The notes under the pieces: generated by a model | What the model was told of the DNA's origin: nothing | The model's database searches: none | What the model saw: the letters and a program-made list of their open reading frames with translations, nothing else | Translations under genes and position numbers: made by a program | Assembly (NCBI RefSeq): GCF_016801985.1 | Contig: NZ_JAEVLS010000002.1 | Location: forward strand, 124,001-188,000 | DNA: 64,000 bases | Origin: Steroidobacter gossypii | GTDB taxonomy: Bacteria; Pseudomonadota; Gammaproteobacteria; Steroidobacterales; Steroidobacteraceae | Reading direction: 5' to 3' | Shown here: positions 16,243-21,109 of the stretch, in pieces | How the letters are laid out: every line of letters begins with the position of its first letter | Numbering within the stretch: position 1 is the stretch's first letter

Positions 16243-16626
16243 ATGCTTTACGCCTTGATGATTTATGAGAGACCCGACGATTGGGAGCGGCGCGATCCCG
16301 CCGTGGCGGATTCATATATCGGCGCCTGGCGCAGTTACTTCCGTGCCATATCCGATGCCGGCATCTACGTCGGCGGCAACGCGCTGGAAAGTCCCGACAA
16401 CGCCACGACGGTTCGGCTGCGCGAGGACAAGCGGCTGATCCAGGACGGTCCGTACGCCAACACCAAAGAACAGTTGGGCGGGTTGATGGTGCTCGAGCTG
16501 CCCTCGCTCGACGAAGCCCTGGATTGGGCGGCGCGCTGTCCGGCCGCGGCTTATGGCGCGATCGAAGTGCGACCTGTGTCAAGCGAGACGGATGAGAGCG
16601 TCACTGGTGAACGCCAGCAATGGTGA
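16243..16626 (+). CDS. YCII-related (DGPF) protein
   Basis: The 127-residue protein has the YCII/DGPF fold signature: LYALMIYE at the start and the motif DGPYANTKEQLGG in the middle. Proteins of this family are almost always encoded beside ECF42 sigma factors, as here: the next gene overlaps it by about 35 nt on the same strand. The biochemical function is unproven; a role in sensing or detoxification under sigma-factor control is proposed for the family. Confidence 0.9.
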   Translation: MLYALMIYERPDDWERRDPAVADSYIGAWRSYFRAISDAGIYVGGNALESPDNATTVRLREDKRLIQDGPYANTKEQLGGLMVLELPSLDEALDWAARCPAAAYGAIEVRPVSSETDESVTGERQQW

Positions 16627-17836
16627 CGTCCAGCGCGCGATCGAAGAAGTCGCGCGCGAATCTTACGGACGACTCGTGGCCGTGCTCGCCGCGCGCACGC
16701 GAGATGTCGCGGGCGCAGAAGACGCATTAGCGGACGCGCTCGTATCTGCATTGCTGACATGGCCGCGTGATGGTGTGCCGCGCAGTCCGCAAGGTTGGCT
16801 GCTCACTGCCGCGCGCAATCGGCTGCTGGATCGCATCCGACATCAGCAGGTTCATGACCTGAGTGCGCCGTCTTTGGCGCTGATGATGCGCGAACTGGAA
16901 GAGACACCCGATCCGGACACGTTGCCGGACGAGCGTCTGAAACTCCTGTTCGTTTGCGCGCATCCTGCGATCGATCCTGACATGCATACTCCGCTGATGT
17001 TGCAAACGGTGCTCGGGCTCGACGCCGTGGCGATCGGTCGCGCTTTAGTCGTGGCGCCGAAGACCATAGGACAGCGCCTGGTCCGCGCCAAGAACAAGAT
17101 TCGAAAGGCGCGCATCTCGTTTGAAATTCCTTCCGCGAAGCAGATCCCCGAACGGCTCGAAGCCGTGCTGAACGCCATCTACGCCGCGTACGGGAACAGC
17201 TGGGAAGATGCGGCGGGCGCGGACCATCGAATCGCGGAGCTCGGTCAGGAAGCAATCTGGCTGGCCCGCGTGTTGAGAGACCACATTCCTGACAACTCGG
17301 AAGTGCGCGGGCTGCTCGCGCTGATGCTCCACTGCGAGGCCCGACGGCCGGCGCGTCGTAGTGCCGACGGACGCTACGTGCCATTGTCGGAGCAGGATCC
17401 ACACAGCTGGCAGATGCCGCTTATCCACGAGGCCGAGCGTGAGCTGGCCGCAGCCGCGCGGATGCAGAGCCTGGGACGATTCCAAATCGAAGCGGCCATC
17501 CAATCGGCTCATGCAGAACGCGCATTCGGGGGCAGCACGAATTGGGTCGCGGTCGCCGCGTTCTACGATCAACTACTGCGGCTCGCTCCCTCGATCGGCG
17601 CTGCCGTGGCTCGAGCGGCGGCGCATGCCGAGTTGCACGGGCCGCAGGCCGGATTGGGGTTGCTAGATCATCTCGAGCCTGAGACCAGTTCGTATCAACC
17701 CTACTGGGCAGTGCGCGCGCATCTCCTGCAACAGCTTGGCAGCGCCGAGCTGGCGGCGGAAGCTTACGATCGCGCGATTCAGCTCAGCGAAGATGCGGCG
17801 GTTCGGCACTTCCTGCTGGAGCGGCGCGGTTGCTGA
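16592..17836 (+). CDS. ECF42-type RNA polymerase sigma factor
   Basis: The ~414-residue protein has sigma regions 2 and 4 in the first ~180 residues (YGRLVAVLAARTRDVAGAEDAL..., SPQGWLLTAARNRLLDRIR; helix-turn-helix around VLGLDAVAIGRALVVAPKT). A long helical TPR-like C-terminal extension (~185-414) is the hallmark of ECF42. This class has no dedicated anti-sigma; the extension is thought to be required for activity. The open frame reaches back to 16553. I chose ATG 16592, which overlaps the DGPF gene; a GTG at 16607 is an alternative. It likely drives the DGPF gene beside it. Confidence 0.9.
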   Translation: MRASLVNASNGDVQRAIEEVARESYGRLVAVLAARTRDVAGAEDALADALVSALLTWPRDGVPRSPQGWLLTAARNRLLDRIRHQQVHDLSAPSLALMMRELEETPDPDTLPDERLKLLFVCAHPAIDPDMHTPLMLQTVLGLDAVAIGRALVVAPKTIGQRLVRAKNKIRKARISFEIPSAKQIPERLEAVLNAIYAAYGNSWEDAAGADHRIAELGQEAIWLARVLRDHIPDNSEVRGLLALMLHCEARRPARRSADGRYVPLSEQDPHSWQMPLIHEAERELAAAARMQSLGRFQIEAAIQSAHAERAFGGSTNWVAVAAFYDQLLRLAPSIGAAVARAAAHAELHGPQAGLGLLDHLEPETSSYQPYWAVRAHLLQQLGSAELAAEAYDRAIQLSEDAAVRHFLLERRGC

Positions 17837-17852: not shown

Positions 17853-18572
17853 TCAAGGTCCGCGATCCCCCGGCGAGAGCTCTGGTCTCGAGTCGTACAG
17901 CTGCTGAGCTCGCGCGGCTTTTTCTTCCATGGTCAAACCCTGATCCTTTTCCACACGCATCAGCTCGATCAGCGAGCGCGTGAGCGCCTCTTCTTTGCCG
18001 TAGAGCGCCATGGCTGTTTCGGGGCCGAAGTGGGCTACACGAAGCGCGTGCAGACCTTCCAGCTCGGCTAGTGCCGCTTCTTCGGTCGCGGGCGCGACGC
18101 CTGGTGGATAAGCCTGTCGCTGCGCCTTCGAATAATTGTCGTAGCGCTCGAGCAATCTCACAGCCTCCGCTGCTGCGGCAGCGGGTAATTGCTGCGTGAT
18201 CTTCTGCTGGGCCTCGCCCAGGTCCGCTGCATCGGTCTGCGCAAACAAGGCTTCCATGTTGAGTCGTGTTTGCTCATCGACCACGAGCTTGCCTGCACTG
18301 TCGACGCGGAACGGTTGTTCCGGATCGGTCTTTGCGGGCGATCCAGTTTGTTCCGATGTCGTCGCGGCAGTCCCGGAGGTCGCAGCGTCCATGTTCGGCT
18401 CGCGCTCCGCGACGTCTTGTTCAGCCTTCGCCGTTACCGTCGGTGCGGGTGCGGGCTGGTCTCTCAACGGAAGAGATTCGGTTGTTTTCGGTACGTCCGC
18501 ACGCCACCACCACGACGCGGCGACGCCGACCGCTGCAGCAACCAACACAGCTGATATGAGATTTCGTTGCAT
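17853..18572 (-). CDS. Short lipase-foldase (Lif)-like chaperone
   Basis: The 239-residue protein has an N-terminal membrane anchor (residues ~4-22) and a variable Ala/Pro/Thr-rich linker (~30-85), as in lipase-specific foldases. The region ~88-150 (GKLVVDEQTRLNMEALFAQT, then QLPAAAAAEAVRLLERYDNY) follows the Lif pattern. So does ALHALRVAHFGPETAMALYGKEE further on, matching the extended helical domain. Typical Lif proteins are ~300-350 residues and end with a second mini-domain; this one stops ~100 residues early. The ATG at 18572 begins just before the anchor; the upstream open frame is not Lif-like. It sits 53 nt downstream of the PETase-like gene on the same strand, the order of lipase-foldase operons. 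Inference: a periplasmic folding helper for that hydrolase. Confidence 0.75.
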   Translation of the reverse strand: MQRNLISAVLVAAAVGVAASWWWRADVPKTTESLPLRDQPAPAPTVTAKAEQDVAEREPNMDAATSGTAATTSEQTGSPAKTDPEQPFRVDSAGKLVVDEQTRLNMEALFAQTDAADLGEAQQKITQQLPAAAAAEAVRLLERYDNYSKAQRQAYPPGVAPATEEAALAELEGLHALRVAHFGPETAMALYGKEEALTRSLIELMRVEKDQGLTMEEKAARAQQLYDSRPELSPGDRGP

Positions 18573-18625
18573 GGCGGGCTCTCCTGCAAGGATGGCGGCG
18601 AAGCCGCCATCCCGGTGCGAACGTT

Positions 18626-19486
18626 TCAATACGGGCAGGTCGATCGATAGTCCGAGAACACCAATCCCGTGGCGTAACTCTGATGAGGCGCGCCACACAG
18701 GAACGGCGAATAGCGCGTGTCTTCATCCATGAAGCGCTTCACCCACGCCACCGCGTAGCGACCGATCGGCGTGTTGGTCGAATTCGGAGCGAAGTGGCTG
18801 GCGCCATTGAGCTCCGCATACGCTTTGTCGAGCGAGCTCGGCAAGCCGTTGTAGAACGGAATCGAATGCGACGTGACCGAGGCGACCGAATCGTTCTCGG
18901 CGCCGATCACCAGGGTCGGTACCTGCATGGACGAAAAAGTCTTGGTCGTGCTCCACGCCGTGAGCGGTACGGCCGCCTTCAAGGAAGGATTGTCTCGGGC
19001 GGCGTACAACGAGCCACCGCCACCCATGGAATGACCGGCGACGCCGCGTCGTGAAGCGTCCACTCTGCTACGAATCGTGGCGCTGCTCGACTGGGTAACG
19101 TGTCGCAGTGCTGCCATCAGCTGCGTGGCGCGGCTGGGTGGCTGATCCAGCGTCGAATTGGTATCGATGGTGATCACGACGAAGCCGTGCGTGGCGATCC
19201 GGCGGCCGAGCCATGCGATCGACGATTGAGTGGCGGTGAACCCCGGCGAGATCGCAAGCACGGCATACGTGCCGCTGGTCGTCGGGTAGTAGATCGTGCC
19301 GCCGCCAAAACCGACCGCCGCCAGACTCGACACCGACGAGGTGGCGACGCTGAACGGGCCGCTGGTGGCGTTCAACGAAGCGGAGGTGGGATCCGGTCCT
19401 TTTTGATACTGCGCGTGTGCGCTGGCGGCCAGGAAGAGCAGGCCGAGTGCCAAACCAAAGCGCCGACGGGAGTTGTTCCTTTCCAT
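18626..19486 (-). CDS. PETase-like polyester hydrolase (type I cutinase family)
   Basis: The 286-residue secreted alpha/beta hydrolase has a signal peptide (cleavage near AHA|Q, residue 26). Its sequence is close to Ideonella PETase and bacterial cutinases: GPDPTSASL..., [40 protein letters not shown]. The catalytic triad is Ser153 ([10 protein letters not shown]), Asp199 (GAENDSV) and His231 (GASHFAP). The substrate-site Trp178 is present; the oxyanion aromatic is Phe83. His152 and Phe232 occupy the positions of Trp159 and Ser238 of Ideonella PETase. The PETase-specific second disulfide is absent (Ala196, Ala233), while the C-terminal Cys264-Cys284 pair is kept. These are type I features. 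Natural substrates are probably cutin-like or aliphatic polyesters; PET activity is possible but unproven. A Lif-like gene follows. Confidence 0.92.
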
Positions 19487-19867: not shown

Positions 19868-21109
19868 TCAGAACGACAGATAGGCGCCGACGTTGAAATT
19901 GCTGCTGTCGTTCTCGATGCCGTTGTGAGCTTCGGCCTTGGTGTCGGTGAACTCGGCGAGCAAGGTGAGATTCTCGGTGAGCGAGTGATACACGCCGACC
20001 GTGTACTTCTCGTTGCTCTCGACCAGCGCCGAGATCGGTTCGCCCGGGGCCAGATCGAGATTGCTCTGGCCGAAGTTCACGCCCACTTTGGTGTCGCCGA
20101 ACTTGTATGTGACTTGCGCCAGGAAGCCGTCGGAATCACGCTCCTCGCCCCCGGGCGCCGCGCCGAACAGATACAACGCGGTCGTGCCCATGCCCTCGCC
20201 GGCGTAGTACCAGCCCATGATCTCCAGGCCGCCGAAAGTCAGTTTGCCGCCGACATCGAAACCGCGGCTGTCGAAGTCGTCCGCATTCGTGACGCCTTCA
20301 TGCTTCTGCCCGATGAAGCTGGCGGAGAGATAAATGGGCCCGTTGGTGTACTGCAGTTTGGCGTGATAGCCCGGGCTGCCTTCGGGGGTCGCCACGCCCT
20401 GCGTGATGGGCTCGAGCGGATCGAAAATGCCGACGGTGAGTTTGAAGCCGCTCAGATCCGGCGTGGTGTAATTGATCTGCCCAAGCCAGTCCGTATAGAT
20501 ATATCCCAGGCCGATCGAGCCCAGCGAAGTATTGGCCGGCGCCGCGTAGTTGCCGTTGCCCGCGCCCACGCCGGGCAAGGTCATGTCGGCCAATATCACA
20601 TCCGCGCCGAACAGCCCGATGTTCCTTCCCAGCAGGAACGTGCCGATGCTGTCGTTGCCGAACGTCATGAACACCTGACGCATGTCGATGGAGGTGGTGC
20701 CGAGCGCCGTGTTCAACAGGTCCGCGCCCTGTTGCAGATTCGGGCTGCCGTCGTTGGTGCTGATGCCCGGATAGAAGCCGAAGGTGACGGTCAGGTCGTA
20801 GCCGTTCTGCGTGGTGGAGGCGCCGATGGCCAGCGCCGCTGGCAGCAGACCGTTGCTGATCGAGGAAGATTTGTCTTCGCCGGCCGCGCCCCGGCACGCC
20901 AGTCCGCCGGTGACGGCCGCCACTGTTTCTTCCTCACAACTGGAATGAATGTAATGAACGTTGACGTTGCCCGAGGCAGTGAGTTTCCAATCGCCGGCGT
21001 CCACTTCGACCGCGGCGGCCGGCGGCCCCGCCAGCAGCGTCATGATGACGGCCCCGATTGCGTACCAGAACCAATGAGTTGGCCCAATCCTGCGCTCTGT
21101 CGTCCGCAT
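19868..21109 (-). CDS. Gram-negative porin
   Basis: The 413-residue protein has a signal peptide ending around AAA|VEVDAG (residue ~33). A barrel of alternating amphipathic strands follows, with a typical FGNDSIGTFLLGRNIGLFG strand-turn of general diffusion porins and a final strand ending YLSF. Two Cys near the mature N-terminus (SSCEEETVAAVTGGLACRG) may form a loop disulfide. The substrate is not deducible. It is transcribed alone; its upstream region holds palindromes at 21343-21373. A large open frame on the opposite strand is only its shadow. Confidence 0.85.
   Translation of the reverse strand: MRTTERRIGPTHWFWYAIGAVIMTLLAGPPAAAVEVDAGDWKLTASGNVNVHYIHSSCEEETVAAVTGGLACRGAAGEDKSSSISNGLLPAALAIGASTTQNGYDLTVTFGFYPGISTNDGSPNLQQGADLLNTALGTTSIDMRQVFMTFGNDSIGTFLLGRNIGLFGADVILADMTLPGVGAGNGNYAAPANTSLGSIGLGYIYTDWLGQINYTTPDLSGFKLTVGIFDPLEPITQGVATPEGSPGYHAKLQYTNGPIYLSASFIGQKHEGVTNADDFDSRGFDVGGKLTFGGLEIMGWYYAGEGMGTTALYLFGAAPGGEERDSDGFLAQVTYKFGDTKVGVNFGQSNLDLAPGEPISALVESNEKYTVGVYHSLTENLTLLAEFTDTKAEAHNGIENDSSNFNVGAYLSF

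Follow-up and report, generated by a model that had tools for sequence, protein, structure and literature searches.

Lipase-specific foldases of the Lif/LipH/LipB type (PF03280) are composed of MD1 (helices 1-3), EHD (helices 4-8) and MD2 (helices 9-11), and are inactivated by mutation of a motif that they carry, RXXFDY(F/C)L(S/T)A; for a lipase foldase, MD1 is described as being essential (available text of PMC7046727). MD2 has been reported as a stable client contact, and the lipase uses the type II secretion route (accessible part of PMC13381987). Solved examples include 2ES4 from B. glumae and 9G8U from A. baumannii. In the available part of PMC13101487, a lipase/LipO pair of Burkholderia vietnamiensis is needed for extracellular mcl-PHA degradation, with transposon insertions as support. 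Like the arrangement proposed below, that system combines a secreted polyester-degrading hydrolase, a Lif-type chaperone and type II secretion; its client is set apart by description, being a named triacylglycerol lipase with a canonical partner (same source). In the available excerpt of PMC13304423, a paper that contains both cutinase and Lif terms, the pair described is a family I.1 lipase pair. For the pairing of a PETase with a Lif, no report was found in the open-licence literature. A precedent outside the lipases is CpaA/CpaB of Acinetobacter, where a membrane-anchored chaperone serves a non-lipase type II substrate; its client is a metalloprotease, unlike the PETase considered here.

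The locus under study lies in a 64,000-nucleotide stretch of the Steroidobacter gossypii genome (the window). As in the Lif/LipH/LipB foldases, its Lif-like protein has a predicted N-terminal membrane helix and a linker, a segment that varies among these proteins; it has MD1 and the first half of EHD in common with them by sequence and fold, and its gene adjoins that of a secreted serine hydrolase. It differs from them in lacking both MD2 (helices 7-11) and the RxxFDY motif, and in having as neighbor and putative client a PF12740 enzyme of the PETase/cutinase type instead of a family I lipase. PETases are heavily engineered for plastic recycling, and members of the PETase clade have been produced in E. 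coli without the short Lif. The review PMC10546322, in its available text, implies such production (section 3.2), presents soluble and secreted PETase yield in foreign hosts as a recurrent engineering target, and gives an approximately 12.5-fold increase in a soluble IsPETase mutant with GroEL/ES in E. coli.

The PETase-like gene and its neighbor

The PETase-like polyester hydrolase gene (18626..19486, minus strand; 286 aa) matches PF12740 over profile positions 3-263 of 263 (4.8e-115, 383.9 bits), and the names of the best 60 of its 182 solved relatives are for the most part those of PET hydrolases, cutinases and esterases of similar kind, in line with the relationship proposed in the first-pass annotation. 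The full catalytic triad claimed there was also located: Ser153 (GHSMG, 19028..19030), Asp199 (ENDS, 18890..18892) and His231 (ASHF, 18794..18796), all on the minus strand and with roles assigned by homology, occupy the conserved places of the PETase/cutinase family. This is the single strong PF12740 gene of its genome (383.7 bits; the runner-up, at 31.6 bits, is barely above the cut-off). The Ideonella-type second disulfide is absent, Cys264 and Cys284 being the only cysteines in the sequence, and we take the enzyme to be type I-like in the customary class scheme. Against the NCBIfam BHET-hydrolase equivalog it scores 405.8 of 520 bits, below the cut-off. A signal peptide is predicted from the sequence at residues ~1-25 (19412..19486, minus strand), with a putative cleavage point after AHA. 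It contains a Tat-like pattern, SRRRFGL, found in one of the 32 PETase signal regions of our pair set and not in the other 31, two Steroidobacter siblings included, which suggests that most PETases of this set are of the Sec type. A porin gene (PF13609, window 19868-21109) lies on the same strand, approximately 380 nt upstream of the PETase gene.

The short Lif-like gene (17853..18572, minus strand; 239 aa) lies downstream on the same strand. Its frame is also readable from an upstream GTG at 18698, overlapping the PETase gene; the ATG at 18572 is the better start because the predicted membrane helix begins there, and with this start the gap from the PETase stop is exactly the 53 nt first reported (18573..18625, minus strand, from ORF coordinates). 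The protein matches positions 1-92 of the 192 of PF03280 (9.8e-13, 48.9 bits, cut-off 25.7), which bears out its initial likening to Lif, and PF03280 was significant in all 15 short Lifs scanned, the window's included. The match to the NCBIfam lipase secretion chaperone is weak (7e-19, 68 bits against an equivalog cut-off of 285). No other Lif of this genome scores above the cut-off.

A sigma-70/DUF6596 gene (16553..17836, plus strand), convergent with the Lif gene and ending 16 nt from its stop, forms the boundary and lies outside the system; it leaves no room for an MD2 half in the window Lif. Read-through of the Lif stop into an MD2 was considered: the match then reached position 167 across two TGA codons (53.3 bits). 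This stretch was judged non-coding, as it is antisense to the 3' end of the sigma-factor gene and gains only ~4 bits. The sigma-factor gene is preceded by a YCII-domain gene (together window 16243-17836, convergent with the Lif gene), and the two presumably form an ordinary ECF-type pair.

Predicted fold of the short Lif

An AlphaFold2 model of the window Lif was built from 14 aligned sequences. It has a predicted N-terminal membrane helix at residues 3-23 (18504..18566, minus strand), whose composition suggests anchoring, followed by disorder up to about residue 80, with pLDDT below 50 at residues 26-43 and 45-77. Six helices are then predicted within residues 100-228 (17889..18275, minus strand), at 100-112, 115-127, 131-154, 164-182, 184-207 and 215-228, and pLDDT is at least 93 in each ten-residue block from 91 to 230. 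Named by alignment and by the scheme in the available text of PMC7046727, they correspond to MD1 (a1-a3) and the first half of EHD (a4-a6). Aligned with full-length Lifs, the sequence of the window Lif runs out after helix 6, and the complete MD1-EHD-MD2 architecture is thus not present.

The top three PDB fold matches (Foldseek) were Lif chains from two lipase-Lif complexes, 2es4_E (5.1e-4), 9g8u_B (9.4e-4) and 2es4_D (0.029), each with a probability of 1.00; their TM-scores are 0.40-0.48 because the window Lif holds only part of the Lif fold. The fourth match was the lipase-binding domain of the P. aeruginosa foldase (E 1.4). At the site where lipase-linked Lifs have RxxFDYFLS, the alignment places TRLNMEALF (18243..18269, minus strand), and the RXXFDY(F/C)L(S/T)A motif is absent from the window Lif both in the alignment and under the strict pattern. 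The first-pass proposal of a Lif-foldase partner is partly supported, by a profile match and, as described below, a conserved neighborhood; it did not foresee that the partner is about half a Lif, that it is without the motif essential in lipase foldases, or that the association is widespread.

Occurrence of the pair in other genomes

In order to describe the recurrence of the pair, we drew on four surveys. In survey (a), a similarity search of genome contigs, the best 80 loci comprised 14 proteobacterial and 66 actinobacterial ones by genus name. A Lif-like ORF adjoins the PETase in 13 of the 14 proteobacterial loci; the remaining one (L081) has no Lif in 5 kb downstream, and upstream its contig ends after 718 bp. 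In the 66 actinobacterial loci no Lif-like ORF was seen in flanks reaching up to 5 kb on either side, which is what a partner acting in a periplasm would lead one to expect. Survey (b), which shares two genomes with (a) (Roseateles YR242 and R. terrae), covered 349 genomes from the family of a Roseateles, 9 of which together hold 19 PF12740 genes at E <=1e-40. A Lif-like gene belongs to the cluster of 18 of these, standing at one remove in tandem for L157 and L158, and is lacking at L152. In survey (c), 369 genomes of the class, three had a PETase at E 1e-50 (the window's, G341 and G454), each with a short Lif, and among 109 genomes of the order of G341 a Lif adjoins the PETase in all six genomes that have one, G341 and G454 among them.

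Survey (d) covered 341 genomes from another order of the class and gave 26 PF12740 genes in 19 genomes. Fourteen of these are strong, at 230 bits or more, a line set after seeing the gap from 230.7 to 163 bits in this survey. Five strong genes have a Lif within 1.7 kb (one at one remove in tandem), one (L167) has a Lif cassette at 5.9 kb, and eight have no Lif in the ~7 kb read on each side (for L198, the contig starts 2 kb upstream). The 12 weaker genes (<=163 bits) divide into three with a Lif and nine without.

Over the three whole-genome samples ((b), the 109-genome order and (d)), a Lif occurs within 1.7 kb of 29 of the 39 strong PETase genes, the window's own not counted, and the conserved neighborhood that the first-pass annotation had named as a check was indeed found. 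Of the other ten, one has the cassette at 5.9 kb and nine have none in the larger stretches read. These survey counts rule out a chance neighborhood of PETase and Lif. The Lif lies directly downstream in the Steroidobacter and Roseateles types and divergently upstream in the Ideonella/Piscinibacter types, so the linkage survives rearrangement. The window PETase and the short Lif are confirmed as a real gene pair.

Altogether 37 short Lifs were collected, including one without an adjoining PETase (L139b) and two that are identical (36 distinct). All 37 are open frames, in a search for open frames that broken copies could escape, and they stop at much the same point of the domain; the L148 frame ends earlier than the others. 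At L131 (G579, 1447-2061), a 205-aa Lif-like frame that lacks the N-terminal membrane part stands beside a PETase fragment at the start of the locus, and is either truncated or a draft-genome error.

The pair is also present at an Ideonella-type locus. The PETase of G632 is identical over 290 of 290 residues to the crystallized poly(ethylene terephthalate) hydrolase 6QGC, which we take to be the Ideonella enzyme; judged from this enzyme, G632 would be I. sakaiensis. Beside it lies a divergent short Lif of 251 aa (L142:382-1134, PF03280 3.8e-16). Like the window, this locus has a PETase beside a short PF03280 Lif; it differs from the window in being divergent instead of co-directional and in having its Lif on a different branch of the tree. 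WP_082368613.1, identical to the G632 Lif, adjoins a 97% identical PETase on the Piscinibacter gummiphilus plasmid NZ_CP136337.1 and is annotated 'lipase secretion chaperone', so the Lif gene is already named in at least one record. On the same plasmid (L139, 156498-169262), transposase genes of IS1071 and ISPps1 enclose an IsPETase-like gene with its Lif, as well as a further Lif that has no PETase, likely a mobile PET-hydrolase block.

Searches starting from Lif showed that such genes are rare. In 200 genomes of the window's family there were eight matches in seven genomes, and six genomes have one above the Pfam cut-off. Four matches are short and beside a PETase (L001, L013, L014 and L016, the window's included), three are full-length and beside another small hydrolase (L010-L012), and the eighth (L015) is weak. 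Genomes looked at have 0-7 Lif matches each, some being two pieces of one gene. In survey (d), two genomes whose PETase has no neighboring Lif (G1202, G1263) have a two-gene Lif cassette at another site, and no hydrolase was seen in its 1.5-kb flanks. In G1091, G1300, G1245, G1285 and G1130 the Lifs found are long, with open frames of 345-462 aa, and the long Lifs L227, L228, L230 and L235 adjoin lipases. G1253, given as 100% complete and possessing a strong PETase, has no Lif at E 0.001. As this genome is without any Lif and other strong PETase genes are without one nearby, the enzyme family can do without it: the short-Lif partner is common, not universal, and not universally needed.

Motif, client and descent

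The strict motif pattern was found in seven of eight lipase-linked Lifs, a label assigned by reading the neighboring sequences with no profile search behind it, versus none of the 37 short Lifs; the eighth lipase-linked Lif has LLHLFDFYLAG at the motif. The pattern was likewise absent from the first (0/4) and second (0/5) genes of two-gene cassettes, from Lifs beside weak PF12740 genes (0/3) and from those beside other hydrolases (0/5), and was present in one of four Lifs with unassigned neighbors. A looser pattern, R..FD[YFD], gave four hits in the 37 short Lifs, all of them RRHFDD in helix 4, away from the motif site, and was discarded. These Lifs amount to a natural experiment: the lipase-linked examples examined retain both motif and MD2, and beside a PETase the motif is lost, as is MD2 in most cases.

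Over 32 pairs, with second copies of tandem PETases excluded, PETase and Lif core distances run in parallel (r 0.81; none of 5000 permutations as high), a pattern that shared descent of linked genes also yields. Two genomes hold several pairs, three in G791 and four in G922, and each of their Lifs is nearest to a Lif that accompanies the same PETase type in a different genome or replicon, and less close to those of the other types in its own genome. As the Lifs cluster by PETase type across genomes, the pairs stay together. In a tree of 44 Lif cores, which contains several long branches and in which the full-length Steroidobacter rows occupy under half of the columns, short Lifs stand at three separate places, and the starred branches force at least three changes between short and full length; as the tree is unrooted, the short form could also be ancestral.

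Short Lifs are under purifying selection. dN/dS is 0.14-0.31 in 9 of 11 Lif pairs, in a set where some rows include a short leader ahead of the start and where synonymous sites are close to saturated among the Steroidobacter sequences; the other two pairs have saturated dS and identical sequences, respectively. Twelve residues are invariant across 15 copies. Lif evolves faster than PETase in Steroidobacter, with 60% identity between the window and L016 for Lif and 86% for PETase.

Discussion

We favor, as somewhat better than an even bet, a client-chaperone pair in which the short Lif is a dedicated periplasmic escort or foldase for the exported PETase and works without the MD2 clamp. The PETase would be exported to the periplasm, probably by Sec, and the Lif-like protein, presumably held in the inner membrane by its N-terminal helix, would present its six-helix domain (MD1 and the first half of EHD) on the disordered linker. 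The emerging PETase may then be bound briefly, helped to reach or keep a secretion-competent fold, and handed over for outer-membrane export, probably via the type II system. A type II secretin gene (GspD) is present in the genome, and together with the predicted anchor and the actinobacterial loci without a Lif it points to a periplasmic step before outer-membrane export. The absence of MD2 and of the RxxFDY motif predicts weak, transient binding, which fits enzymes that fold unaided and whose soluble yield in E. coli is limited. The partner would thus be a transient escort for a client that folds nearly alone, not an obligatory steric foldase as for family I lipases. The gain in the soluble IsPETase mutant with GroEL/ES makes it plausible that PETase folding is limiting; as PETases are made in E. 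coli without Lif, the first-pass idea of a 'foldase-assisted' hydrolase, in which the short Lif folds the enzyme, is likely but unproven.

Several observations count against this reading. The motif is missing in 37 of 37 short Lifs, and MD2 is missing as well. Ten of the 39 strong PETase genes have no Lif within 1.7 kb, and the parallel distances could also come from co-inheritance of neighboring genes. The window PETase has a Tat-like signal, and a Tat client would arrive folded; in addition, there are the Lif without a PETase (L139b) and the frame without the membrane part (L131). A different role, which we regard as unlikely without setting it aside, is that the short Lif binds PETase that has already folded and keeps it tethered or retained at the inner membrane, as a secretion or localization factor or a temporary protective inhibitor, and gives no folding help. 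Loss of the foldase motif and MD2, with the predicted anchor helix and the long linker kept, would suit such a role, as would production of clade members in E. coli without Lif (noted above; available text of PMC10546322); the part that was retained, MD1, is however the one described as essential in a lipase foldase (PMC7046727, available text). It is improbable that the short Lif serves another exported hydrolase and adjoins the PETase incidentally. Full-length motif-free Lifs of Steroidobacter do adjoin a different small serine hydrolase, two genomes hold a two-gene Lif cassette with no hydrolase in the 1.5-kb flanks read, and the Piscinibacter plasmid holds a short Lif that no PETase adjoins; yet a Lif lies within 1.7 kb of 29 of 39 strong PETase genes although the genomes looked at have just 0-7 matches each, and in the genome of the window a single strong PETase is matched by a single Lif above the cut-off. 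That short Lifs are the degenerating leftovers of full-length lipase foldases, carried along next to PETase genes, is very improbable, and pseudogene status was rejected: they are shorter than canonical Lifs and have lost the motif, and L131 lacks its N-terminal part and L148 ends early, but 37 frames, found in a search for open frames, share about the same end point, dN/dS is 0.14-0.31 in 9 of 11 pairs, and the short form occupies three separate places in the tree with 12 invariant residues across 15 copies.

The client-chaperone reading has a wider form. The Gram-negative PETase family, the Ideonella type included, may have an overlooked helper protein. In its full form, which we consider as apt to be wrong as right, Gram-negative PETases, Ideonella's included, are clients of a distinct half-length, motif-free Lif class; should the full-length form be the ancestral one, three or more Lif lineages would have been cut back to the MD1 half, each of them next to PETase genes, and elsewhere the task is split between two neighboring Lif-like proteins. 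In their native hosts, these PETases would then mature and be secreted with the aid of a dedicated partner, one that appears to be missing from recombinant work. If natural hosts use a membrane-anchored escort, co-expression would be a simple lever, and we found no report of such use. If true, the pair would also show how little of a steric chaperone suffices, and would widen the clients of Lif beyond lipases.

Other Lif arrangements were seen near PETases and related enzymes. Two adjacent Lif-like genes, possibly a two-part chaperone, occur at gammaproteobacterial PETase loci (L193:8874-10539, L211:3180-4844, L212:6867-8490, L213:6790-8228 and L100:682-2340); in L193 and L211-L213 the first cassette gene keeps the final part of MD2, with the preceding segment missing. 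Distant PF12740 hydrolases (~140 bits) in L214, L215 and L216 (G1173, G1352 and G1258) adjoin motif-free Lifs, and the L216 Lif, the one of the three that was aligned, is missing the end of MD2. Finally, full-length Lifs without the FDY motif in Steroidobacter (L010, L011 and L012, from G106, G115 and G044) and in L232 (G1127) adjoin small secreted serine hydrolases with GHSQGGGG. The L010 hydrolase has no Pfam match at E 0.01, and these four loci appear to represent another non-lipase client group of Lif.
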